Source: a virus | DNA: 37,248 nucleotides | Direction: 5' to 3' (one strand) | Virus record (IMG/VR): IMGVR_UViG_3300019761_000004 | Span: 1 to 37,248 of that record | In this document: positions 12,373 through 36,794 of the stretch, piece by piece | How the letters are laid out: every line of letters begins with the position of its first letter | Numbering within the stretch: position 1 is the first letter of the stretch | Made by a program: the position numbers and the translations under genes | Notes under the pieces: model-generated | Database searches by the model: none | Told to the model about the DNA's origin: nothing | The model's input: only the letters and a program-made list of their open reading frames with translations

Positions 12373-12399
12373 GATGGCCTCCTATGCAAGTTTGCAATC

Positions 12400-12430
12400 A
12401 CCATACCACCAACTAGCAAAGTTGCAAAGT
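12400..12430 (-). promoter_or_regulatory. Structural-gene promoter P2 with ACTTTGC repeats
   Basis: Reading on the minus strand: the 15-mer ACTTTGCAACTTTGC (12430-12416) includes the -35 TTGCAA (12427-12422). A 16-bp spacer follows, then the -10 TATGGT (12405-12400). Transcription would start near 12393, just upstream of the AGGAGG site of the tail tube gene. Further TTTGCA-type motifs flank it at 12386-12397 and 12437-12442. The same 15-mer at the same spacing occurs at 17683-17669. Confidence 0.65.
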
Positions 12431-12431
12431 G

Positions 12432-12851
12432 TCACTCTGCAAAGCGGTAGGTGATCCGATATGTGCCGATCTGATGTGACGTGACTCCATCCGGGTCATC
12501 GAACTCGGCAGAACTGTCAAACCGGCAATCAATGACGTTCACGCCCGCCACGGCCAAGGCGTCATACTTTTGGAGCGCGTCATACACATCGTCAGCAATC
12601 GCGCGCCACGTAAGGGCGGACTGAGACCGTGACCAAATGTGAACATCGAACAGAGCCTGCGCCCCGTTGTCCGTCTTTGAATCATCTGGCGTCACTGCCA
12701 CAGGGCCAAGCGTGATGTAAGGAAACGCGCTGTCATCCTCGCTCTCTGGAGACTGCGGCACACTGGTGTAGATCCCGGTCACTACATCGGTTATTGCGGT
12801 CACGCTGTTAAGGCGTGTGTACACTGCCTGCTGTACGGCTGCGATCTTCAT
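12432..12851 (-). CDS. Tail completion/terminator protein (DUF3168-like), 139 aa
   Basis: The N-terminal helix (KIAAVQQAVYTRLNSVTAIT) and the following phrase (GIYTSVPQSPESEDDSAFPY ITLGP) are the usual signature of the DUF3168/gp17-like family that caps the tail tube at the head side. Its C-terminus forms strands (GTYRITYRFAE). It lies in the canonical position between the HK97 gp10-like protein and the tail tube. The stop is immediately before the P2 promoter. Confidence 0.75.
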   Translation of the reverse strand: MKIAAVQQAVYTRLNSVTAITDVVTGIYTSVPQSPESEDDSAFPYITLGPVAVTPDDSKTDNGAQALFDVHIWSRSQSALTWRAIADDVYDALQKYDALAVAGVNVIDCRFDSSAEFDDPDGVTSHQIGTYRITYRFAE

Positions 12852-16892: not shown

Positions 16893-17623
16893 TTTGGAGC
16901 CTCCATCTTTTGCAAAGTTTCTGTTAGCAGTGCTTTGAGTTCGTCAACCTCGCGTTGATCGGTCTCGGGTGGCAGGGCGTCTGCATCGCGCAGAACATTC
17001 TTGCGGCCCTCCAGCGCTCCAGCGGCCATGGCCTTTGCCATCGTGCCGGATACGTTGATTTCTTTCAGCGACTTTTCAAGGTGCCGCTTGATTTCAGCCT
17101 CGCTCATGTCTTCGACAGACTTCATGGCGTAGATGTTGGCCAGCTCATTCATGGGGAACGTCACGACACTGGTTTCCCAAAGGTCCAGCTTGGTGAGCTT
17201 GCGGGTGCCTTCGTCAACGTCCATTTCATAGTCGCGGGTGCGATAGCCGATGCTAAGGCCTTCGATGGCCCCCATCTTCACCAGCGCAGCAACCTCTGCG
17301 CCCTTGGCCGCTTTCTTGGAAATCCGCCCCTTCATATACAGGCCGTTTTCGTCCTCGCGCATTTCGTCCCATGCGCCGATTGGCTGAGACGGGTCGTGCT
17401 GCCACAGCATCTTTGGCTTGCGACCAGAGGCGATGCACTCCTTGAACGCTCCAGGCATCACGATATCGCCGCCATTGTCCTTGACGCCAAAAACGGATCC
17501 ATACCCGCTGACGGTCAGGAACTCGTCGCTTTCGCCATCCTCATCGGCCTTTATCTCAAGGGTCGCATACTTGATTTCAAGATCGACCATCGCGTCCTTT
17601 TGGCCCCAAACGTGTTTTGGCAT
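16889..17623 (-). CDS. HK97-type prohead protease, 244 aa
   Basis: Start taken at 17623 (MPKHVWGQKDAMVDLEIKYA). A second ATG at 17590, with an AAAGGA site, is possible. The catalytic residues of the S78 family are visible: His76 in LWQHDPSQPIG and Ser124 in EGLSIGYRTRDYE, with an acidic partner in LWETSVVTFPMN. It cleaves the capsid delta domain and itself during maturation. The final codons overlap the capsid gene start (ATGA). The P1 promoter sits just upstream. Confidence 0.9.
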   Translation of the reverse strand: MPKHVWGQKDAMVDLEIKYATLEIKADEDGESDEFLTVSGYGSVFGVKDNGGDIVMPGAFKECIASGRKPKMLWQHDPSQPIGAWDEMREDENGLYMKGRISKKAAKGAEVAALVKMGAIEGLSIGYRTRDYEMDVDEGTRKLTKLDLWETSVVTFPMNELANIYAMKSVEDMSEAEIKRHLEKSLKEINVSGTMAKAMAAGALEGRKNVLRDADALPPETDQREVDELKALLTETLQKMEAPK

Positions 17624-17652
17624 TACAAGCCCCACTTTGCAAAGTTTGCAGG

Positions 17653-17683
17653 AGTATAGCACGCATATGCAAAGTTGCAAAGT
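17653..17683 (-). promoter_or_regulatory. Structural-gene promoter P1 with ACTTTGC repeats
   Basis: On the minus strand the 15-mer ACTTTGCAACTTTGC (17683-17669) carries the -35 TTGCAA (17680-17675). A 16-bp spacer leads to the -10 TATACT (17658-17653), giving a start near 17646. Just downstream is a perfect 12-bp palindrome ACTTTGCAAAGT (17634-17645). It would drive protease and capsid. The arrangement matches P2 upstream of the tail tube gene base for base in the 15-mer and the spacing. Confidence 0.7.
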
Positions 17684-18519
17684 TAGTCGTCATCCAGGCC
17701 AACAACTGTGTGAGCTACGGCGCACCTGCAATTGATGCTCGCCGCAGCGGGCAAAGTGGGGTCGCCTGGGAACTGGCACAGAACGTCAGGCCCCTTGATC
17801 CATGGCATGTGAAACAGTTCATCTATGCCAACTGTCTGCCCGTCCATGGACCGATGATCGAACTCATCAACAACGCCATCGCCCTCGCCAAAGTCGCGGG
17901 TTCGGTGGTCCTCTACGGACACCCATTGCTTCCGAAGATCAAGCCCGGTCTGCTTGGCGGTCTCGTTTGCCCCATAGTTTGCTGCACCGTGTAGCTCCGT
18001 CCTGGCGATCAGCGCACCGCGCCACCGGGATATGCCGGGAATGCGTTCCTCAATCAGCGCCGCGATTGCACCCACCCCAAGACCGTCACGTTGCCCTTTC
18101 TCGATCTGGGCAATGATCTGGTTGCGCGTGGTCTCAGCAACGGAAGTGATCCGGCGGCGCATGCTCTCGAAGTTGATGTAGTTCAGGGCTAGGCTGTGGA
18201 AGAACTCGGCAAAGCTGAACTCTTTGGTTTCCAGATCTAGGCCAAGCGCCTTGCCTTGCACAGTCATCCTGCGCCCAAACGTGCGAATAGCCATCTCTGC
18301 CATGTCGAGATATAGCGCGCGAATAGACCGCATGTGCGCGTCATCGTCCATCGGCGCGAATCCAAGCTCACGGTATGCAGATAGGATGCGGTCAGACTGC
18401 GCCGATATCTCTGACGTGATATGGCGACGGAACCGGCCCTCCATGACCGCAAGCAATCGGCGCTGTATCTGCGCCTCTCGCTCCCGGCTGTGGCTGATGA
18501 ATGCTGGCTTGCGTGGCAT
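17683..18519 (-). CDS. MuF-like minor head protein, 278 aa
   Basis: The C-terminal half has the Mu gpF/SPP1 gp7 domain pattern: ARTELHGAANYGANE, then KQWVSVEDHRTRD, FDHRSMDGQTVG and a closing INCRCAVAHTV. The paired Cys and conserved His/Asp are the family hallmark. The N-terminal half is helical (RRLLAVMEGRFRRHITSEIS). These proteins are carried in the head next to the portal and may enter the cell with DNA. It lies in the usual portal - MuF - protease order. Confidence 0.85.
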   Translation of the reverse strand: MPRKPAFISHSREREAQIQRRLLAVMEGRFRRHITSEISAQSDRILSAYRELGFAPMDDDAHMRSIRALYLDMAEMAIRTFGRRMTVQGKALGLDLETKEFSFAEFFHSLALNYINFESMRRRITSVAETTRNQIIAQIEKGQRDGLGVGAIAALIEERIPGISRWRGALIARTELHGAANYGANETAKQTGLDLRKQWVSVEDHRTRDFGEGDGVVDEFDHRSMDGQTVGIDELFHMPWIKGPDVLCQFPGDPTLPAAASINCRCAVAHTVVGLDDD

Positions 18520-24523: not shown

Positions 24524-24940
24524 CTAAAAGGGAATTTCTGATTCGCCCAAATCACCTGCCCCGCCGTAACCGCCTGAATTGGCGCTGCCGCCAGATCCAT
24601 ACCCGCTGTCCTGCTGGCCACCGTAACCTCCGCCGGAGTCGTTGCTCTTCTGCCCGCCGCCCATAGGCGTAAAGTCGGATGCGTTGACTGTCAGATAGGT
24701 CTTGCCGTTGTGTTCTCGCGTTCCCAGATCCCCAGTGACAGTGATCTTTGCGCCCTTGTTCAGGAACTGCATGGCTGATTCACCGCGCCGACCCCAAATC
24801 GAGCAATCGAAATAGTGAACTGTCTTTTCCTTGTTTGCGTATCCGTTCACAGCGACTGAGAAGCTGGCGACCTTGTTGCCGCCTGCCTCGCGCAATTCTC
24901 CGTCGCGTGTGATGTTTCCTGAAATGGTGATATTTTTCAT
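24524..24940 (-). CDS. ssb: Single-stranded DNA-binding protein (SSB), 138 aa
   Basis: Start at 24940 (MKNITISGNITRDGELREAG). An OB-fold core is seen through VASFSVAVNGYANKEKTVHY FDCSIWG and GAKITVTGDLGTREHNGKTY LTVNASD. A Gly/Ser-rich linker leads to the acidic tip ESEIPF, close to the bacterial SSB tail DDDIPF that binds host replication proteins. It coats ssDNA during phage replication and recombination. Confidence 0.9.
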   Translation of the reverse strand: MKNITISGNITRDGELREAGGNKVASFSVAVNGYANKEKTVHYFDCSIWGRRGESAMQFLNKGAKITVTGDLGTREHNGKTYLTVNASDFTPMGGGQKSNDSGGGYGGQQDSGYGSGGSANSGGYGGAGDLGESEIPF

Positions 24941-24941
24941 C

Positions 24942-25115
24942 TTACTCACTCTCTCCGTTTTTCTCTCGATGCACCTTGAGGCCATCCGTCCCTGCGATGA
25001 TGCAGATCAATGCGATGATGATCAACGCGCCACCAGCTGCTACTTGCGCCCCTACTGCGGCTATGACAACTGCCCAGAAGAGCAAGCCCAGCGCAAAGGC
25101 TATAAGCCAGATCAT
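24942..25115 (-). CDS. Small membrane protein, 57 aa
   Basis: Runs from the ATG at 25115 (ATGA overlap with the upstream stop) to a TAA one base before the SSB start. Two strong hydrophobic helices (MIWLIAFALGLLFWAVVIAA and GGALIIIALICIIAG) are followed by a charged tail that holds the SSB ribosome site. A signal-like short membrane protein of unknown role. Confidence 0.6.
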   Translation of the reverse strand: MIWLIAFALGLLFWAVVIAAVGAQVAAGGALIIIALICIIAGTDGLKVHREKNGESE

Positions 25116-25480
25116 GCGTCACCATCCTTCGCCACCAGCGCCTCAAGGAGCGCGATTAGGAGCGCGCGGGAGGGGGTGGCTGCGTATGCGTTGAATTCGA
25201 GCGTAACAGCTCCATCCTCTGACTTCCTTACCCACATAGTTACATCACGATGATGTGCGTTCTGACCTCCGTGCCAAGTCCACCCCGGCAGCACCGCCTC
25301 ATGCAGGGATAGGGCGGCGTCCATGGAGCCGTTGTATGCTTTCCACGCTATACCTTGATCTTTCATGTCAAATGCCTGCCAGTATGTCTTGACGTATGCC
25401 TCCCTGAACGGGCTGTATTCTGGCGCGTTCCCCGCCTTTACCTTCACCAGCAGGTCTTGAAGTGCTTCTTTGCGTGTCAT
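25112..25480 (-). CDS. Hypothetical protein, 122 aa
   Basis: Start at 25480 (MTRKEALQDLLVKVKAGNAP) with an AGGAG site; two earlier in-frame codons are less well placed. Contains SPFREAYVKTYWQAFDMKDQ and ends in a helical ALLEALVAKDGDA. A similar phrase, GNAPEYSPFREAY..., occurs in small proteins of roseophages and rhizobial phages. The role is not known. An operator and a possible promoter lie just upstream. Confidence 0.65.
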   Translation of the reverse strand: MTRKEALQDLLVKVKAGNAPEYSPFREAYVKTYWQAFDMKDQGIAWKAYNGSMDAALSLHEAVLPGWTWHGGQNAHHRDVTMWVRKSEDGAVTLEFNAYAATPSRALLIALLEALVAKDGDA

Positions 25481-25510
25481 GTCGGTCTCCTGTTTTGGCA
25501 TATCCACCAC

Positions 25511-25535
25511 TAAGCCATTTACGGCTATTCGTCAA
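25511..25535 (-). promoter_or_regulatory. Operator-like inverted repeat and weak promoter upstream of the 122-aa gene
   Basis: On the minus strand the element reads ATAGCC-GTAAAT-GGCTTA (25528-25511), adjacent to a -35-like TTGACG (25535-25530). The -10 candidates (TTAGTG or TAGTGG) are poor. It belongs to the ATAGCC-N6-GGCTAT set found also near 28.84, 33.1 and 35.9 kb. Confidence 0.5.
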
Positions 25536-25976: not shown

Positions 25977-26756
25977 TCATCCCTCGCCGTCTCTCCCCTC
26001 TCTGGCAAGGTCAGCAAATGCCTGAGCCGTTCCAGACCCAAAGCCGCCCGATCTGGTGACAGCGCCCCGTCTGGCGTTGAAAGATCTCGCGTTGCCAAGC
26101 CATGTGCGCCAAGCTGCGTCCCAGTTTTTGAATGTTGATCCTTTTGCGAGGTGGTAGTCACGGAATCGCTCCCCTTGTTCGTTTATCTCTTGCTGTGTGA
26201 AGTCTTTGGCCAGCGCGTCTGAAATGTTCTTGTCGCTTGGAACCCAGTTTTCAGGGATTGAGGTGGCGCGTTTTGGCTTTGGCTTGACCGCTTCAACTTC
26301 GAAACCTTCCAGAAAATCTGCTTGACCCTGATCGCACCCATAAGGGTCATCTGGTTTATGATCTGGTTTACTATCTGGTATTGGTTGGCCTTTTCGGGCC
26401 GTTCCATTGGCCTTTTCGGGCCGTTCCATTGGCCCTTTTGGGCCAGTGGGGGGAACCCAATCAACAGAACACGCCGGGGAATACCAAGAGGTTTTGTCAT
26501 AGTTGGCCTTGTTGTACTCACCTTTGACGATCAGGCCAGCTTTCACGAGTTTATCCAGGCAAAGGCGGATCTGCTTTTCTGTGAGATAGTCGAACTGATG
26601 TGAAAACGCTTTGCGCGAGTTGTACGTCCACCAGAGACCATCACGAAACGACTTTCCGTTGCGCATGTTATGCTCTGCCCAGAACACGATATTCTGATAA
26701 AGAACGGCTGCATTGACACCAACGCGCTTTGCGATGCTTGGTTCAAAATAGTGCAT
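25977..26756 (-). CDS. Replication initiator-like protein, 259 aa
   Basis: The start at 26756 shares a base with the upstream stop (TGATG). The N-terminal ~100 residues are a winged-helix domain (YFEPSIAKRVGVNAAVLYQN IVFWAEHN; LTEKQIRLCLDKLVKAGLIV) as in phage replisome organisers. A Pro/Lys-rich linker (PTGPKGPMERPEKANGTARK) leads to a C-terminal helical domain with SIPENWVPSDKNISDALAKD and FKNWDAAWRTWLGNA, a region shared with helicase-loader-type proteins. Likely binds the phage origin and recruits the host helicase. Confidence 0.7.
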   Translation of the reverse strand: MHYFEPSIAKRVGVNAAVLYQNIVFWAEHNMRNGKSFRDGLWWTYNSRKAFSHQFDYLTEKQIRLCLDKLVKAGLIVKGEYNKANYDKTSWYSPACSVDWVPPTGPKGPMERPEKANGTARKGQPIPDSKPDHKPDDPYGCDQGQADFLEGFEVEAVKPKPKRATSIPENWVPSDKNISDALAKDFTQQEINEQGERFRDYHLAKGSTFKNWDAAWRTWLGNARSFNARRGAVTRSGGFGSGTAQAFADLAREGRDGEG

Positions 26757-27247
26757 CACGCAGACCTCTTGGCCAAATAGTGCATAAACTCAGAAACTGT
26801 TTTAGCGCCCTTGGATGAGTTGCAGGAACGGCAAGCGCATGTGAGATTTTCCACCTCATCACCTCCGCCCCTCGACCTTGGAATCTTGTGATCAATGGTC
26901 AAATCGTTTTCTGACCCACAGTAAAAGCACTTCCACCCGCAGGAATCAAAGACCATTCTTCTTTTCCTTGGTATCGTCTTTTTGGACGCGACTGGATCAT
27001 ATCTTCCAGATTCAACCTCGAACATTGGAACATTGACCAGCCTTCCGTCTACGAGGCTAAGAAATCCAAGATTCCAAAGCTCGGAAATTAGATCTGTTGC
27101 CAGGCTCTCGTCAGACAGGTTGCACCATCTCACAATGGATGCTGTGTGAACACTTCCCGAGCAATCACCTATTGCCATCAGCGCCAAACGCAGATCGCCC
27201 GTTAGTGTCGGCTCATCAATAGCCATCATCAAACATTCAGAAGACAT
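26756..27247 (-). CDS. HNH endonuclease with N-terminal helical domain, 163 aa
   Basis: The last ~65 residues are a treble-clef HNH nuclease: paired CFYC, then LTIDHKIPRSRGGGDEVENL, then CRSCNSSKG, with the usual His/Asn/His positions and zinc Cys pairs. The first ~90 residues form a winged-helix-like domain (LRLALMAIGDCSGSVHTASI) that could direct DNA binding. It ends in a one-base overlap with the initiator. May be a homing enzyme or a replication/packaging nuclease. Confidence 0.8.
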   Translation of the reverse strand: MSSECLMMAIDEPTLTGDLRLALMAIGDCSGSVHTASIVRWCNLSDESLATDLISELWNLGFLSLVDGRLVNVPMFEVESGRYDPVASKKTIPRKRRMVFDSCGWKCFYCGSENDLTIDHKIPRSRGGGDEVENLTCACRSCNSSKGAKTVSEFMHYLAKRSA

Positions 27248-27276
27248 TTTTGCCCCTATATTCGGGCCGAGACCTC

Positions 27277-27389
27277 TTGCAGCAGATACCCCTATCCGCT
27301 ATCCTAGTCTCAGCATTAATACTGCGAACACGATACGCCGCCACCCACGGCATTGCAAGGCCCGCTAGGTTGATCCGGCGGGCCTTTTT
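27277..27389 (+). ncRNA. Candidate small RNA, about 78 nt
   Basis: A plus-strand promoter-like TTGCAG-17-TATCCT (27277-27305) lies ahead of a short stretch without any ATG and a strong terminator ending at 27389. The 3' part (27327-27365) matches the region before the terminator at 30286-30318 (gccgccacccac versus gccaccacccac). The flanking genes run on the minus strand, so this is an intergenic transcript, antisense to nothing known. No family recognised. Confidence 0.4.
27357..27389 (+). terminator. Rho-independent terminator
   Basis: GGCCCGC (27359-27365) pairs perfectly with GCGGGCC (27378-27384) around a 12-nt loop, and five Ts follow (27385-27389). Plus-strand orientation only. Confidence 0.85.
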
Positions 27390-27444
27390 CATTGCCTACC
27401 CCGACATAGCGTAGGATGTGAGAATGGCTGTGGGGGTGAATAGG

Positions 27445-28363: not shown

Positions 28364-28553
28364 TCGCTCTCTCCTCTGTGCGGGTGTTCCATGCGGATCT
28401 GGCCTCATCAAATGTCTTGTGGTTCTTTCCGGTCCTCATGTTTACTGGGCATCCTGAGAGCCTATTGGAGCATCTAATTACACTGCACTCCAAGCGAGGC
28501 TCGAATACTGCATGTCCGCCACAAAACGGGCACGGCTTCAGAGCCTCACTCAT
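28353..28553 (-). CDS. Lar-like restriction alleviation protein, 66 aa
   Basis: Start at 28553 (MSEALKPCPFCGGHAVFEPR). The CPFCGG knuckle, then a second cysteine set (CSNRLSGCP) and a C-terminal KTFDEARSAWNTR, is the Lar/Ral family pattern. Lar proteins modulate type I restriction-modification so phage DNA escapes cutting. Expressed from the early minus-strand promoter. The family contains many zinc-ribbon relatives of unproved activity. Confidence 0.75.
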   Translation of the reverse strand: MSEALKPCPFCGGHAVFEPRLECSVIRCSNRLSGCPVNMRTGKNHKTFDEARSAWNTRTEERANDG

Positions 28554-28773
28554 CGCTCTCTCCTCTGTGCTGGTGGGTGGTGGTGACGATTGGGCCAACC
28601 GGTTCGCCATTCAGATCCATGAGGATATTTCGACCGTTCAGTGCCACCGTGTACCTGTCACCGGCAAAATATGACCCATACCAAGCCATGATGCTGGCAA
28701 CAGACCCGGCATCACATTTTATTTTCACCGTCTTTGGCTTCGCATCTGCGTTGTTGAAAACTAAATCATCCAT
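28546..28773 (-). CDS. Hypothetical early protein, 75 aa
   Basis: First gene of the leftward early array, with AGGAGAGAG before the ATG. Beta-rich core (TVKIKCDAGSVASIMAWYGS and RYTVALNGRNILMDLNGEPV). Unknown function; early position suggests host take-over or regulation. Confidence 0.65.
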   Translation of the reverse strand: MDDLVFNNADAKPKTVKIKCDAGSVASIMAWYGSYFAGDRYTVALNGRNILMDLNGEPVGPIVTTTHQHRGESDE

Positions 28774-28821: not shown

Positions 28822-28856
28822 TTGACACTATAGCCTAGAACGGCTATCAAGGGCAA
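28822..28856. promoter_or_regulatory. Divergent early promoters sharing one operator
   Basis: Operator ATAGCC-TAGAAC-GGCTAT (28830-28847) is a perfect inverted repeat. Plus promoter: TTGACA (28822-28827), 17-bp spacer, TATCAA (28845-28850). Minus promoter: TTGCCC (28856-28851), 18-bp spacer, TATAGT (28832-28827). Occupancy of the repeat would block both promoters. Confidence 0.75.
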
Positions 28857-28875: not shown

Positions 28876-29103
28876 ATGCAAATCACAGCAGAAGTTGCAG
28901 GGGCTGACATCCAGATGGAGCACGCCACCATCAAGGCGGGAGCGATCAAGCACGTTGAAGAAATCCGCATCCCGCGCACCGAAAACATGGGGCTGATGAT
29001 CGAGGTCGAGGGCGGCGAGGTTTGGTTCACCGATCTGCCGGAGGGTCTGGGCGAGGCGCTGGCCGTGGCCTATGGCAAGTGGAAGGACGCGCAAGATGAT
29101 TGA
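28876..29103 (+). CDS. Hypothetical early protein, 75 aa
   Basis: First gene of the rightward early unit, with AGGAG 7 bp upstream. Beta-strand pattern (MQITAEVAGADIQMEHATIK, then GLMIEVEGGEVWFTDLPEGL) ends in an Ala-rich helix. No motif recognised. Confidence 0.7.
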   Translation: MQITAEVAGADIQMEHATIKAGAIKHVEEIRIPRTENMGLMIEVEGGEVWFTDLPEGLGEALAVAYGKWKDAQDD

Positions 29104-30082: not shown

Positions 30083-30088
30083 AAAATC

Positions 30089-30144
30089 AGTATACGCTAA
30101 AAATTAGCAGTTGCAATGGGCGCTTTTCTGGCGTAGCGTATATT
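30089..30144. promoter_or_regulatory. Divergent promoters inside a 9-bp perfect inverted repeat
   Basis: Minus promoter: TTGCAA (30116-30111), 16-bp spacer, TATACT (30094-30089). The plus -10 is TATATT (30139-30144), with no good -35. The arms TATACGCTA (30091-30099) and TAGCGTATA (30134-30142) overlap both -10 elements. A second small palindrome, GCTAA-AAA-TTAGC, lies at 30096-30108. Confidence 0.6.
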
Positions 30145-30191
30145 TGTCGGGATTGACCCGGCCACAGCAACCAAACCTAGGAGACCAAAAC

Positions 30192-30260
30192 ATGGCAATT
30201 TACGCATTCATTCTTATCGTGGGCATCATCGAAGCTGCAAGCCAGTCCGGCGCACTCTGA
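30192..30260 (+). CDS. Tiny membrane peptide, 22 aa
   Basis: It has its own promoter region, an ideal AGGAGA site 7 bp upstream, and its own terminator 26 bp downstream. The peptide is one hydrophobic helix (MAIYAFILIVGIIEAA) with a polar tail (SQSGAL). It is the only gene on this transcript. Such a unit could be a small toxin-like or regulatory membrane peptide. Confidence 0.55.
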   Translation: MAIYAFILIVGIIEAASQSGAL

Positions 30261-30285
30261 TACCAAGCCACCACCCACCGCAATC

Positions 30286-30318
30286 AAGGCCCGCCGGGGT
30301 TTCCTAGCGGGCCTTTTC
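30286..30318 (+). terminator. Rho-independent terminator
   Basis: GGCCCGC (30288-30294) pairs with GCGGGCC (30307-30313) and is followed by TTTT. Nearly the same stem as the terminator at 27357-27389. Confidence 0.85.
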
Positions 30319-30323
30319 TGTTG

Positions 30324-30351
30324 TTGACTTGCCATGTGGCGCGGGTAATAT
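30324..30351 (+). promoter_or_regulatory. Promoter of the tRNA cluster
   Basis: TTGACT (30324-30329), 16-bp spacer, TAATAT (30346-30351). The predicted start is at or next to the ATG at 30358. Confidence 0.55.
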
Positions 30352-30417: not shown

Positions 30418-30493
30418 GCTGGTGTAGCTCAGTTGGCAGAGCGCTTTCCTTGTAAGTAAGATGTCGTGGGTTCGAATCCTTCCACCAGCACCA
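30418..30493 (+). tRNA. tRNA-Thr (anticodon TGT)
   Basis: 76 nt including the encoded CCA. The acceptor stem GCTGGTG/CACCAGC is perfect, the D stem is GCTC/GAGC, and the anticodon loop CTTGTAA gives TGT. The anticodon stem has one T-T mismatch and the T stem has two non-Watson-Crick positions. Confidence 0.9.
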
Positions 30494-30494
30494 T

Positions 30495-30569
30495 TGCAGT
30501 ATAGCTCAGCGGTAGAGCGCGGCGCTCATAACGCCTCTGTCCCAGGTTCGATCCCTGGTGCTGCAACCA
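30495..30569 (+). tRNA. tRNA with anticodon CAT (Met or Ile2)
   Basis: 75 nt with CCA. Acceptor TGCAGTA/TGCTGCA, D stem GCTC/GAGC, anticodon loop CTCATAA, perfect T stem CCAGG/CCTGG. The CAT anticodon could be elongator Met, or Ile2 if modified to lysidine; the sequence alone does not decide. Confidence 0.88.
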
Positions 30570-30570
30570 A

Positions 30571-30647
30571 GCATCCGTAGCATAATTGGATAATGCAGGG
30601 GGCTTCTATCCCCAAGATTGCGGGTTCGAATCCTGCCGGGTGCTCCA
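30571..30647 (+). tRNA. tRNA-Arg (anticodon TCT)
   Basis: 77 nt with CCA. Acceptor GCATCCG/CGGGTGC, D stem GCAT/ATGC, anticodon loop CTTCTAT, T arm GCGGG-TTCGAAT-CCTGC. It decodes AGA and AGG. Confidence 0.9.
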
Positions 30648-30718
30648 CCTTTCTCTTTGCCCCTCTCTCTGCATGTGATACCTTGCCGGGGCGCGGCTTT
30701 CGAATTAAGCTTCCTTGT

Positions 30719-30747
30719 CCGGCGCCTCTGCCATTGGTACGCGCCGG
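30719..30747 (+). other. GC-rich hairpin between tRNA genes
   Basis: CCGGCGC and GCGCCGG form a perfect 7-bp stem with a 15-nt loop. It is followed by ATTTC rather than a T-run, so it is more likely a processing or pausing structure than a terminator. The remaining gap between 30648 and 30758 shows nothing else I can support. Confidence 0.5.
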
Positions 30748-30758
30748 ATTTCAACTAT

Positions 30759-30832
30759 TGCGCAGTAGTGTCAAGTAACACGCTAGGCTCATAACCTGGA
30801 ACTGAGGGTATCAAATCCTTCCAGCGCAACCA
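30759..30832 (+). tRNA. Degenerate tRNA-Met-like sequence (anticodon CAT)
   Basis: Folds as acceptor TGCGCAG/CAGCGCA (one mismatch), D arm GTGT-CAAGTA-ACAC without the usual GG, and anticodon arm CTAGG-CTCATAA-CCTGG. The T arm is irregular (GAGGG/CCTTC with an 8-nt loop). CCA is encoded. May be functional, decayed, or a tRNA-like RNA. Confidence 0.55.
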
Positions 30833-33097: not shown

Positions 33098-33143
33098 AAA
33101 GACCGTTTCGGCTATTTACGTGCCGCAAATGGCTTGCTATAAA
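33098..33143 (+). promoter_or_regulatory. Promoter and two operator-like repeats of the recombination operon
   Basis: TTTACG (33115-33120), 17-bp spacer, TATAAA (33138-33143). Operator-like copies: AAAGAC-N6-GGCTAT (33098-33115) touching the -35, and GCC-N6-GGC (33119-33136) filling the spacer. Degenerate members of the set that is perfect at 28830. Confidence 0.6.
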
Positions 33144-33171: not shown

Positions 33172-33924
33172 ATGAGCGATGATGACCGCGTAGAGGATGG
33201 CGGCAATACCAGCGCGCCGACTGGCCTCGATCTTATGCGAGCGCCATTTCAGCCGAACCAGATTTCAAAGCTGCCAAAGCCGACCCGCAAGCAAACAGAT
33301 GAAGTGAGGGCAAATTTCAAAGCCGGTATCCGCTGCAAGATCTGCGGCGGCTGGCACCATAAAGACGTGGTGCACCTTGACTACGTTGGCCATGCGGCAC
33401 TGACTGACAGGCTTCTAGAGTGTGATCGGCTATGGAACTGGGAGCCTGTTGCATTTGATGACCGGGGCCAGCCAATGCTTGACCAGAGCGGCGGCATGTG
33501 GATCAGGCTGACCGTATGCGGACAGACGCGGCTTGGTTACGGTCACGCCGATGGGAAAAAGGGCGGCGACGCCATTAAGGAGGTCATTGGCGATGCTCTC
33601 AGGAATGCCGCGATGCGCTTCGGTGCGGCTCTTGATCTTTGGCACAAGGGAGACCTGCACGACGCTGCGACAGAAGAGCCTGAAACTAAAGAGCCAGAAT
33701 CCCCTGCGACAATCACCGAAGAGCAGTTCATGAAGCTGCGCGACTTGGCGGAAAAGGCTGGCGTGACCCATGAGCAGATTTGCGAGAGGGTTGGGGCAGA
33801 ATGCCTTGACCAATTCCCCGCAGGCCGTTTCGCTGCCGTGGCAAAGGGGCTGCAAGCAAAGATCGACGCCGCAAAGACGACATCACCTGATGTTGATCTT
33901 GATGGCGATTACATCCCTCACTAG
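33172..33924 (+). CDS. Rad52-like single-strand annealing protein, 250 aa
   Basis: Start at 33172 with AAAGGA 7 bp upstream. The core is the Rad52/Sak pattern: VGHAALTDRLLECDRLWNWE, then GYGHADGKKGGDAIKEVIGD and ALRNAAMRFGAALDLWHKG, in which the last helix is the hallmark. A Cys/His region (CKICGGWHHKDVVH) precedes it. The C-terminal ~90 residues are an acidic linker and a short helical domain (ITEEQFMKLRDLAEKAGVTH). Anneals complementary ssDNA in phage recombination. Confidence 0.8.
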   Translation: MSDDDRVEDGGNTSAPTGLDLMRAPFQPNQISKLPKPTRKQTDEVRANFKAGIRCKICGGWHHKDVVHLDYVGHAALTDRLLECDRLWNWEPVAFDDRGQPMLDQSGGMWIRLTVCGQTRLGYGHADGKKGGDAIKEVIGDALRNAAMRFGAALDLWHKGDLHDAATEEPETKEPESPATITEEQFMKLRDLAEKAGVTHEQICERVGAECLDQFPAGRFAAVAKGLQAKIDAAKTTSPDVDLDGDYIPH

Positions 33925-34790: not shown

Positions 34791-35242
34791 TGACTTCCCG
34801 CGTACTCAGAAGCCCAGAGGATGTGGACGCGCTGGCAACCATGCTGCGCGCCCGCACCAAATGGCCGATCACGGTGGCGGTGGCGCAGGGGGCGAAGCGG
34901 ACCAACCCGCAGAACGCGCTTGCGCAGATGTGGGCGAATGAGGTGGCACAGCAGCGCGGGGATCACTTCGAGGACGTTCGGGCTGAATTCAAGCTCAGAC
35001 ATGGCGTTGCTATCCTGCGCCGGGAACTGCCCGCCTTCAAAGAGGTGTACGACCGCCTTCTAAAGCCACTGGACTATGCAAGCAAGATCGAGGCGGTGCG
35101 CCGCCTTGACCTAAGCGTTACCCGCCTGATGACCACCAAGCAGCAGAGCGAGTACATGGAGAGCATAGAGCGCGAGTATCGCTCGCAGGGGTTTAACCTA
35201 ACATCGCCCGCGACCATGGGTTTAGAGGAGTTGAAGCGATGA
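34790..35242 (+). CDS. NinB-like recombination protein, 150 aa
   Basis: Begins MTSRVLRSPEDVDALATMLR; the phrases WPITVAVAQGAKRTNPQNAL and AQMWANEVAQQRGDHFEDVR recall NinB family proteins, whose shared feature is an RS(L/T)xQN-type core followed by MWA. Position in a recombination gene group before a small HTH protein and a DUF968 nuclease also resembles the lambda nin region. The match is moderate. Confidence 0.55.
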   Translation: MTSRVLRSPEDVDALATMLRARTKWPITVAVAQGAKRTNPQNALAQMWANEVAQQRGDHFEDVRAEFKLRHGVAILRRELPAFKEVYDRLLKPLDYASKIEAVRRLDLSVTRLMTTKQQSEYMESIEREYRSQGFNLTSPATMGLEELKR

Positions 35243-35451
35243 AATTCACCACCGCACAAGTAGGCCAGATTTCACGCTGGCTGCAAAACGGATACGGGGC
35301 TGAGGACATCGCCTTGGAAATGAAGGCCCACCCTGAACACGTTCGAATGCAGATCCGCAAGTTTCGCGCCAATGGTATCTTGGGAAATATCGCGTCAGAG
35401 GCGCGGCAACGTCTCAAGATCGACATGAAGCGCCGGGGTGTATCGTGCTAA
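35239..35451 (+). CDS. Small helix-turn-helix protein, 70 aa
   Basis: ATGA overlap with the previous stop. The segment VGQISRWLQNGYGAEDIALE MKAHPEHVRMQIRKFR has the helix-turn-helix pattern of short Trfa/sigma-like DNA-binding proteins. The C-terminus is basic (RQRLKIDMKRRGVSC). It may regulate the operon or help DNA processing. Confidence 0.65.
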   Translation: MKFTTAQVGQISRWLQNGYGAEDIALEMKAHPEHVRMQIRKFRANGILGNIASEARQRLKIDMKRRGVSC

Positions 35452-35863: not shown

Positions 35864-35887
35864 AGCCCCGCTTCGGCGGGGTTTTTC
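35864..35887 (+). terminator. Rho-independent terminator with UUCG tetraloop
   Basis: CCCCGC-TTCG-GCGGGG followed by TTTTT (35866-35886). Six perfect GC-rich base pairs and an extra-stable tetraloop make it very efficient. Confidence 0.93.
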
Positions 35888-35901: not shown

Positions 35902-35931
35902 TTGCAATGGATAGCCGTTTAAGGCTAGAAT
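35902..35931 (+). promoter_or_regulatory. Promoter with operator, rightward accessory operon
   Basis: TTGCAA (35902-35907), 18-bp spacer, TAGAAT (35926-35931). The spacer carries ATAGCC-GTTTAA-GGCTAG (35911-35928), an almost perfect operator copy. The next gene starts at 35958. Confidence 0.7.
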
Positions 35932-35957: not shown

Positions 35958-36218
35958 ATGACTTTTAGAGAAAAGATTGCAGACTGGATTTCGGGCGGGG
36001 GACTGAAGAAGGCGAGAGACAGCCGGGATGGGTGGAAAATCCTTTATAAGGATAAGCGATGGGATTTTGAATCGTGCCGAGACGCATCAGACAGAGGATG
36101 GGTCGAGGCGAACAAGGCTCACAACGTATTGCGAGACATCGCCGCACAAGAGACCCCCGGCGCAAACGCAACAGTCAAGCGCATGGCCCGCATCGCCCGC
36201 GAGGGGCTGGGCGAATGA
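35958..36218 (+). CDS. Small protein, 86 aa
   Basis: Start at 35958 (MTFREKIADWISGGGLKKAR) with a GAGGG site; an in-frame upstream ATG at 35889 is inside the promoter. Helical, charged (DKRWDFESCRDASDRGWVEA). It heads the operon that crosses the junction. Unknown role. Confidence 0.7.
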   Translation: MTFREKIADWISGGGLKKARDSRDGWKILYKDKRWDFESCRDASDRGWVEANKAHNVLRDIAAQETPGANATVKRMARIAREGLGE

Positions 36219-36526
36219 CACCTGACGAACAGCTATATGACGCATCTCTTGCGCTGGCCGGGATCTGCGACACGGACACTGCCGCACTTCTCGGCAAGGC
36301 TCTTCACGGCGACGGGCTGGATATGGACTATGTTTTTTCTGGGCGTAATGCGTCCAGAGCCATCGCATCTACCATGTGCCAAACGAACAAGGCAGAGATA
36401 ATGCCCGCTCTGCGTGAGCTGAACGAAGCAATCAACGGGCTGACAGGTCGGGGAATCATCGACCTTGCCAATATCGTAGACAACAAACTGGACCTGACAA
36501 ATGAAAAAAACAATCACCCCAGCTGA
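36215..36526 (+). CDS. Hypothetical helical protein, 103 aa
   Basis: Start at 36215 (MTPDEQLYDASLALAGICDT) in ATGA overlap. Helices include AIASTMCQTNKAEIMPALRE and IIDLANIVDNKLDLTNEK. Mostly acidic; no motif recognised. Confidence 0.7.
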   Translation: MTPDEQLYDASLALAGICDTDTAALLGKALHGDGLDMDYVFSGRNASRAIASTMCQTNKAEIMPALRELNEAINGLTGRGIIDLANIVDNKLDLTNEKNNHPS

Positions 36527-36794
36527 GTTCCGCGCATTCCGCGAGAGCCTCGGCCTCAATATCCAGCAGATGGCCGAGCGCTACGGATATGCGCACAAGT
36601 CGAAAATCTCCAACTTCGAAACCGGATGCCTGCCCGTCCCGGCCCGGCTGGCCAGCGAGATCCGAAAGGACATGCTGCTTATCCGCATCGACAACATGCT
36701 GTCTGAGATGATGGATACCAAGGGGCCGATCACAAAGGCCATGCTTCAGAGCCTTATTGACGATATTCGCGCGGTCACAGGTGGGGCGGACTGA
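36501..36794 (+). CDS. XRE-type helix-turn-helix regulator, 97 aa
   Basis: The N-terminal ~55 residues (ITPAEFRAFRESLGLNIQQM AERYGYAHKSKISNFETG) form the five-helix lambda-repressor-like DNA-binding domain; the recognition helix would be HKSKISNFE. The C-terminal part is helical (LIRIDNMLSEMMDTKGPITK). It overlaps the preceding gene by 26 bp and lies in the operon downstream of an operator-bearing promoter. It is the best candidate for the regulator binding the ATAGCC repeats, though this is inference. Confidence 0.7.
   Translation: MKKTITPAEFRAFRESLGLNIQQMAERYGYAHKSKISNFETGCLPVPARLASEIRKDMLLIRIDNMLSEMMDTKGPITKAMLQSLIDDIRAVTGGAD

Follow-up and report, generated by a model that had tools for sequence, protein, structure and literature searches.

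A palindrome of the form ATAGCC-N6-GGCTAT is found at promoters in four places of this phage genome, and these four copies are probably operators of a phage repressor, the likely one being the XRE-type protein encoded at 36501-36794, which would act by promoter occlusion and regulate its own synthesis. The window, that is the whole stretch of DNA analysed, comprises 37,248 nucleotides. As the sequence-only reading had proposed, an operator set through which one regulator controls several early transcription units describes these sites best. Three of the four are placed in promoter spacers, and the best matches are enriched in intergenic DNA; their binding is predicted, and we infer that the units concerned are early.

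The palindrome family and its genomic setting

The genome carries a 123-base repeat at both ends and thus closes on itself at about 37,125 bp. The structural genes are oriented leftward, beginning at about 22.6 kb and ending at about 2.3 kb; early-type genes occupy 24.5-37.2 kb and extend over the junction as far as about 2.1 kb. Among the early functions annotated are an annealing protein, a 3'-5' exonuclease, a NinB-like protein, HNH endonucleases, a replication initiator, a single-strand binding protein and a DNA methyltransferase. No tyrosine integrase was found in the genome by a search that was positive in 14 of 14 control genomes, and no lysogeny gene appeared in a PHROGs comparison that covered all but a few small ORFs, which agrees with the earlier description of a phage devoid of a recognisable lysogeny module. 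According to gene annotations, no repressor gene lies directly beside the 28.84 or 35.91 kb sites. Three tRNA genes (Thr-TGT, Met-CAT, Arg-TCT) are located at 30418-30829; a fourth, weaker tRNA-like match (30759-30829) was positive in Rfam and negative in ARAGORN.

When the whole genome was scanned for ATAGCC-N6-GGCTAT, six sites matched at least 10 of the 12 specified bases. Four of them are intergenic, three of these being in promoter spacers, and the remaining two, both 10/12 matches, lie within genes (27514 and 28233). Intergenic DNA makes up 10.6% of the genome, yet it holds four of the six best sites (Fisher p = 0.0016). With up to three mismatches allowed, 16 matches were found against 12.6 +/- 3.9 expected; there is no excess at this level, and what carries the claim is therefore the strongest matches and where they lie. 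Because the motif had first been chosen by eye, all 6-bp half-sites with spacings of 0-10 were evaluated in intergenic DNA and in 160 dinucleotide shuffles. ATAGCC-N6-GGCTAT, not chosen beforehand in this test, came out as the top palindrome family in intergenic DNA, and a motif equally good occurred in 2 of the 160 shuffles, so the test is moderately strong only. A literature search on the two half-site strings gave no relevant match.

Most copies named by the sequence-only reading were recovered: the perfect one between divergent promoters at 28.84 kb, the near-perfect one filling a promoter spacer at 35.91 kb, and the one near 25.52 kb, which is situated in a promoter spacer. Of the two degenerate copies placed at 33.10-33.14 kb, that at 33098 stands, whereas the other matches at only seven positions. 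Confinement to intergenic DNA holds for the four named copies and fails for the two 10/12 matches inside genes. All coordinates are given in Table 1.

Table 1. Palindrome copies, their promoters and the genes behind them (positions in the window).
Feature	Position	Strand	Remarks
Perfect operator-like copy ATAGCC-TAGAAC-GGCTAT	28830..28847	.	12/12 specified bases; common to two divergent promoters
Near-perfect copy ATAGCC-GTTTAA-GGCTAG	35911..35928	+	11/12; spacer of XRE-operon promoter
Copy ATAGCC-GTAAAT-GGCTTA	25511..25528	-	10/12; spacer of TTGACG-N17-TAGTGG
Copy ATAGCC-GAAACG-GTCTTT	33098..33115	-	10/12; immediately 5' of -35 (33116-33121)
Very degenerate copy	33120..33137	+	7/12, weak; within spacer of 33.13 kb promoter
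Rightward promoter TTGACA-N17-TATCAA	28822..28850	+	by eye; palindrome in spacer; GTCAAAA at predicted +1 (28857); gene start 28876
Leftward promoter TTGCCC-N18-TATAGT	28827..28856	-	consensus scan; palindrome in spacer; first gene start 28773
XRE-operon promoter TTGCAA-N18-TAGAAT	35902..35931	+	consensus scan; GTCAAAA at predicted +1 (35938)
Promoter TTGACG-N17-TAGTGG	25535-25507	-	by eye; palindrome in spacer; GCCAAAA at 25499
Promoter TTTACG-N17-TATAAA, 33.13 kb	-35 at 33116-33121		before single-strand annealing protein gene
First gene right of 28.84 kb palindrome	28876..29103	+	75 aa
First gene left of 28.84 kb palindrome	28546..28773	-	
HNH endonuclease	26756-27247	-	farther left of 28.84 kb palindrome
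Replication initiator	25977-26756	-	farther left of 28.84 kb palindrome
Single-strand annealing protein gene	33172..33924	+	behind 33.1 kb site
phrog_23823 gene	25112..25480	-	behind 25.51 kb site
Single-strand DNA-binding protein gene	24524-24940		downstream of 25112..25480 gene
First gene of XRE operon	35958..36218	+	86 aa; C-terminal motif NATVKRMARIARE common to other phage proteins
Second gene of XRE operon	36215..36526	+	103 aa
XRE-type helix-turn-helix protein	36501..36794	+	97 aa; third gene of 35.91 kb operon; proposed repressor

Promoters and the shared leader

The promoters are of the sigma70 type, and the palindrome fills their spacer at 28830, 35911 and 25511. Two of them were found unaided by the consensus scan (28856-28827, minus; 35902-35931, plus) and two were recognised by eye. 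The promoter context assigned to the palindromes in the sequence-only reading proved correct. Read in the direction of transcription, they are TTGACA-CT-ATAGCCTAGAACGGCTATCAA (28.84 kb, plus), TTGCCC-TTG-ATAGCCGTTCTAGGCTATAGT (28.84 kb, minus), TTGCAA-TGG-ATAGCCGTTTAAGGCTAGAAT (35.91 kb, plus) and TTGACG-A-ATAGCCGTAAATGGCTTAGTGG (25.51 kb, minus). The 35.9 kb and the 28.85 kb minus-strand promoters are indeed alike, as had been noted, both reading TTGC-N4-GATAGCCGTT-N2-AGGCTA. Distances are also regular. The centre of the palindrome is 10.5-12.5 bp from the -35 element in the spacer-type promoters of this phage, of two related records (L091 and L092) and of Paracoccus phage Pkon1. Where a spacer operator reads directly into a gene, its centre precedes the start codon by 37.5, 38.5 or 39.5 bp; under random placement in gaps, distances this even arose in 0.16% of trials (p about 0.002).

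All four operator genes, and no others, have G(T/C)CAAAA as a leader situated 19-23 nt ahead of the start codon, approximately where transcription is expected to start. The heptamer occurs 18 times on both strands of the genome, five times at most 30 nt before a called start, and the fifth of these start-proximal copies lies 14 nt before 17590. The shared leader indicates that the four genes belong together and supports the 25.51 kb promoter, whose -10 is poor, as well as the 33.13 kb promoter.

Further repeats are present in the genome. Late-type promoters of the pattern CTTTGCAACTTTGCA-N7-8-TG-N-TAT(A/G), followed by another TGCAAA, exist in two copies (17604-17690 and 12376-12440, both minus) that precede head and tail genes and are distinct from the ATAGCC palindrome family. 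This TTTGCAA-repeat pattern was detected in two copies in each of three records (L091, L092, L095) and in one copy in L031, and its reversed control pattern had no match; it is a conserved, putative late-regulator site separate from the operator set. Two similar units at 27270-27395 and 30083-30325 have a promoter-like TTGCA and, within about 100-200 bp, a near-identical terminator (CAAGGCCCGC...GCGGGCCTTTT). A reading frame of 22 aa (MAIYAFILIVGIIEAASQSGAL) is present in the 30.1 kb unit; the 27.3 kb unit showed none and is possibly a small RNA.

The XRE operon and its counterparts in related phages

The inverted repeat at 35911-35928 lies inside the core promoter (TTGCAA-18-TAGAAT) from which the XRE protein's own operon is read, and a strong terminator (35864-35883) separates this operon from upstream genes. 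In a phmmer comparison with solved structures, the XRE protein matched only Aca2 proteins (best E = 0.0027). Its structure model (pLDDT 87) is nearest to SO3848, Aca2, Aca10, HigA2 and MqsA, all of them helix-turn-helix proteins (Z about 9 to 10), with SO3848/Aca2 at the top (Z about 10, residues 4-84, rmsd 6). Foldseek E-values of the model were weak (best 0.09), helix-turn-helix domains of this type all looking alike. The Pfam model Aca2_YdiL scored 12.5 bits, below its cut-off of 23.8, and the protein is therefore not filed as Aca2. Aca proteins are known to act as dimers that repress their own operon by binding inverted repeats within its core promoter (PMC9410906, PMC8434428, PMC9410881). 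Being encoded in one of the controlled operons and predicted to fold like palindrome-binding autorepressors, the XRE protein is a plausible candidate for the binder.

The two small proteins encoded before it match no known family, and no known anti-CRISPR gene was recognised. We make no claim of an anti-CRISPR operon at 35958-36526, as its small proteins are unrecognised and the tail of the first is also found in scattered phage proteins. This tail, a NATVKRMARIAREAL-like C-terminal motif, recurs in otherwise different small phage proteins (L079-L084) and represents a putative mobile C-terminal module.

Relatives were sought with the annealing protein, the 35958 ORF, the XRE protein, the 28876 ORF, the 25112 ORF and the large terminase. 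The palindrome letters are absent from promoters in all 19 related records, so comparative proof is lacking for these exact letters; the relatives' annealing-protein genes do not start behind a promoter, and their upstream regions are thus not comparable. The expected conservation in related phages consequently fails for the letters, and it holds for the anatomy. Both L091 and L092 have the late gene block in common with this phage. They encode a weak XRE homologue (E about 1e-5), preceded at a distance of two genes by the promoter TTTACA-N17-TATATA, whose spacer holds a different palindrome, GGACA-GAA-TGTCC (in full, TTTACA-CACC-GGACAGAATGTCC-TATATA). A search with this homologue led to operon p72-p71 of Pkon1, whose promoter TTGACA-AC-TAGCGCCATTGGCGCTA bears a palindrome at the same distance. 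L092 and Pkon1 have the leader GGGCAATGAAGCCCGC in common, which indicates that their operons are probably homologous though their operators differ. Pkon1 carries its own CI, Cro and integrase, so the XRE operon does not serve it as a lysogeny switch. These relatives thus appear, by sequence comparison, to keep the operon anatomy, in which the promoter ahead of small genes and an XRE gene contains a palindrome, and not the operator letters. Since the spacer palindrome is single-copy in L092 and in Pkon1 as against four places here, the arrangement in this phage resembles an autoregulated XRE operon in dispersed form.

A leader hairpin GGGC-AATGAA-GCCC is found just before the ribosome-binding site in the XRE operons of L092 and Pkon1 (L092 8740-8784, L112 2760-2816), and the Aeromonas phages phiA005 and AsC4_1 have a leader that differs from that of L092/Pkon1, the two being mutually similar. 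The leaders of these XRE operons are possibly a means of RNA-level control, which is known for Aca2.

A scan of viral contigs for TTGAC-N2-4-ATAGCC-N6-GGCTA returned 21 unrelated contigs. By a rough estimate chance could yield as many in such a collection, and we set these matches aside as evidence. A promoter-length pattern had no match in viral contigs, and one such match in an Ardenticatenaceae contig was taken as chance. Promoters with TTGAC and ATAGCC-N6-GGCTA, with several more half-sites nearby, are present in L009 (3443-3467, 3622-3646) and L014 (4627-4652), two of these viral contigs; they may be real but unrelated operators, which suggests that similar palindromes are used independently.

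Proposed regulation by the operators and competing explanations

Against an operator function it can be said that two of the four copies have two mismatches, that equally good matches exist inside genes and that four sites are few. The palindromes might also be operators of a different protein, either a host regulator or another helix-turn-helix protein of the phage, for instance the one of 70 aa encoded at 35239-35451. The XRE protein has no direct tie to the letters of this palindrome rather than another, and the 70-aa protein shows a weak helix-turn-helix match (HTH_38, E 0.008) and a model that is all-helical at low confidence (pLDDT 68). We nevertheless consider a different binder unlikely: absence of the motif from promoters of the 19 related records, some of them probably with similar hosts, is unexpected for a common host factor, and in L091/L092 and Pkon1 the spacer palindrome is found at the promoter of the very operon that encodes the XRE protein.

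The promoters resemble one another outside the palindrome too, the leader G(T/C)CAAAA being among the shared parts, and this could mean that a promoter cassette (-35, spacer, -10, leader and ribosome-binding site) was copied around the genome and that the palindrome is a copied spacer which binds nothing. This is quite improbable, as the symmetric half-sites are kept while the central six bases and flanks vary, the 28.84 kb copy works for both directions, and the 33.10 kb copy keeps its half-sites outside the spacer, beside a promoter with the same leader. Chance similarity among promoter-like sequences, with which the missing excess at three mismatches and the moderate strength of the shuffle test would agree, is very improbable in view of the intergenic placement, fixed start-codon distance and independent leader match taken together.

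If the XRE protein is the repressor of this operator set, its dimer would occupy the DNA between -35 and -10 at 28.84, 35.91 and 25.51 kb and block the host sigma70 RNA polymerase, a single dimer at 28.84 kb closing both divergent promoters. The 33.10 kb site directly adjoins the upstream side of its -35, and the effect there may hence be weaker or even positive. As the XRE protein is made from the 35.91 kb operon, it would also keep its own level in check. On entry the early genes would be read strongly, to be throttled later as the protein accumulates; the outcome would be an early-to-late turn-down, not lysogeny. A doubtful extension of this scheme is that an Aca2/MqsA-like autorepressor, acting on its own operon only in relatives, has become phage-wide here by operator spread into other early promoters, in which case its two small upstream neighbours in the operon could be anti-defence genes.

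This kind of system is already known, and the dispersal is a modest variation of it. In lambdoid phages, one small repressor, CI or Cro, acts at the OL and OR operators inside several early promoters. The operators described here likewise lie in several early promoters, a divergent pair included; unlike in lambdoid phages, there is no CI/Cro pair and no integrase, and instead of tandem operator triplets there are single operators spread over about 10 kb. With Aca1, Aca2 and Aca10 the phage shares a small helix-turn-helix protein encoded behind small genes and an inverted repeat in the operon's core promoter, and the Aca group is structurally nearest to the XRE model (PMC9410906, PMC9410881). 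In contrast to Aca systems, the repeat is found at several promoters and not at its own operon's only, the Pfam Aca2/YdiL score is below cut-off and no known anti-CRISPR gene was recognised.

Stoperators of Cluster A mycobacteriophages are similarly sites for one repressor distributed across the genome, early promoters included. They are asymmetric 13-bp sequences, numerous, present also within operons and able to stop elongation as well (PMC9283540), whereas here there are four strong symmetric sites at promoters only. Short dyad or start-linked repeats scattered genome-wide and absent from other phages are likewise known from Cluster O, whose 17-bp dyad repeats exist in more than 30 copies, mostly off promoters and about a third in genes, and from Cluster K, with translation-start motifs (SAS) in many copies and ESAS, which combine inverted repeats with a start-linked motif (PMC4351075, PMC3203893). 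The present family differs from Cluster O repeats and Cluster K SAS in having few copies, located at promoters.

If the proposed regulation is true, a phage without a lysogeny switch shuts down its early genes by means of one small XRE protein, in what is otherwise ordinary phage transcription control. It also offers a comparative case, in which the operon anatomy is the same and the operator letters differ, the operator being present once in relatives and at dispersed places in this phage; how a regulon grows out of a self-limiting operon thereby becomes testable.
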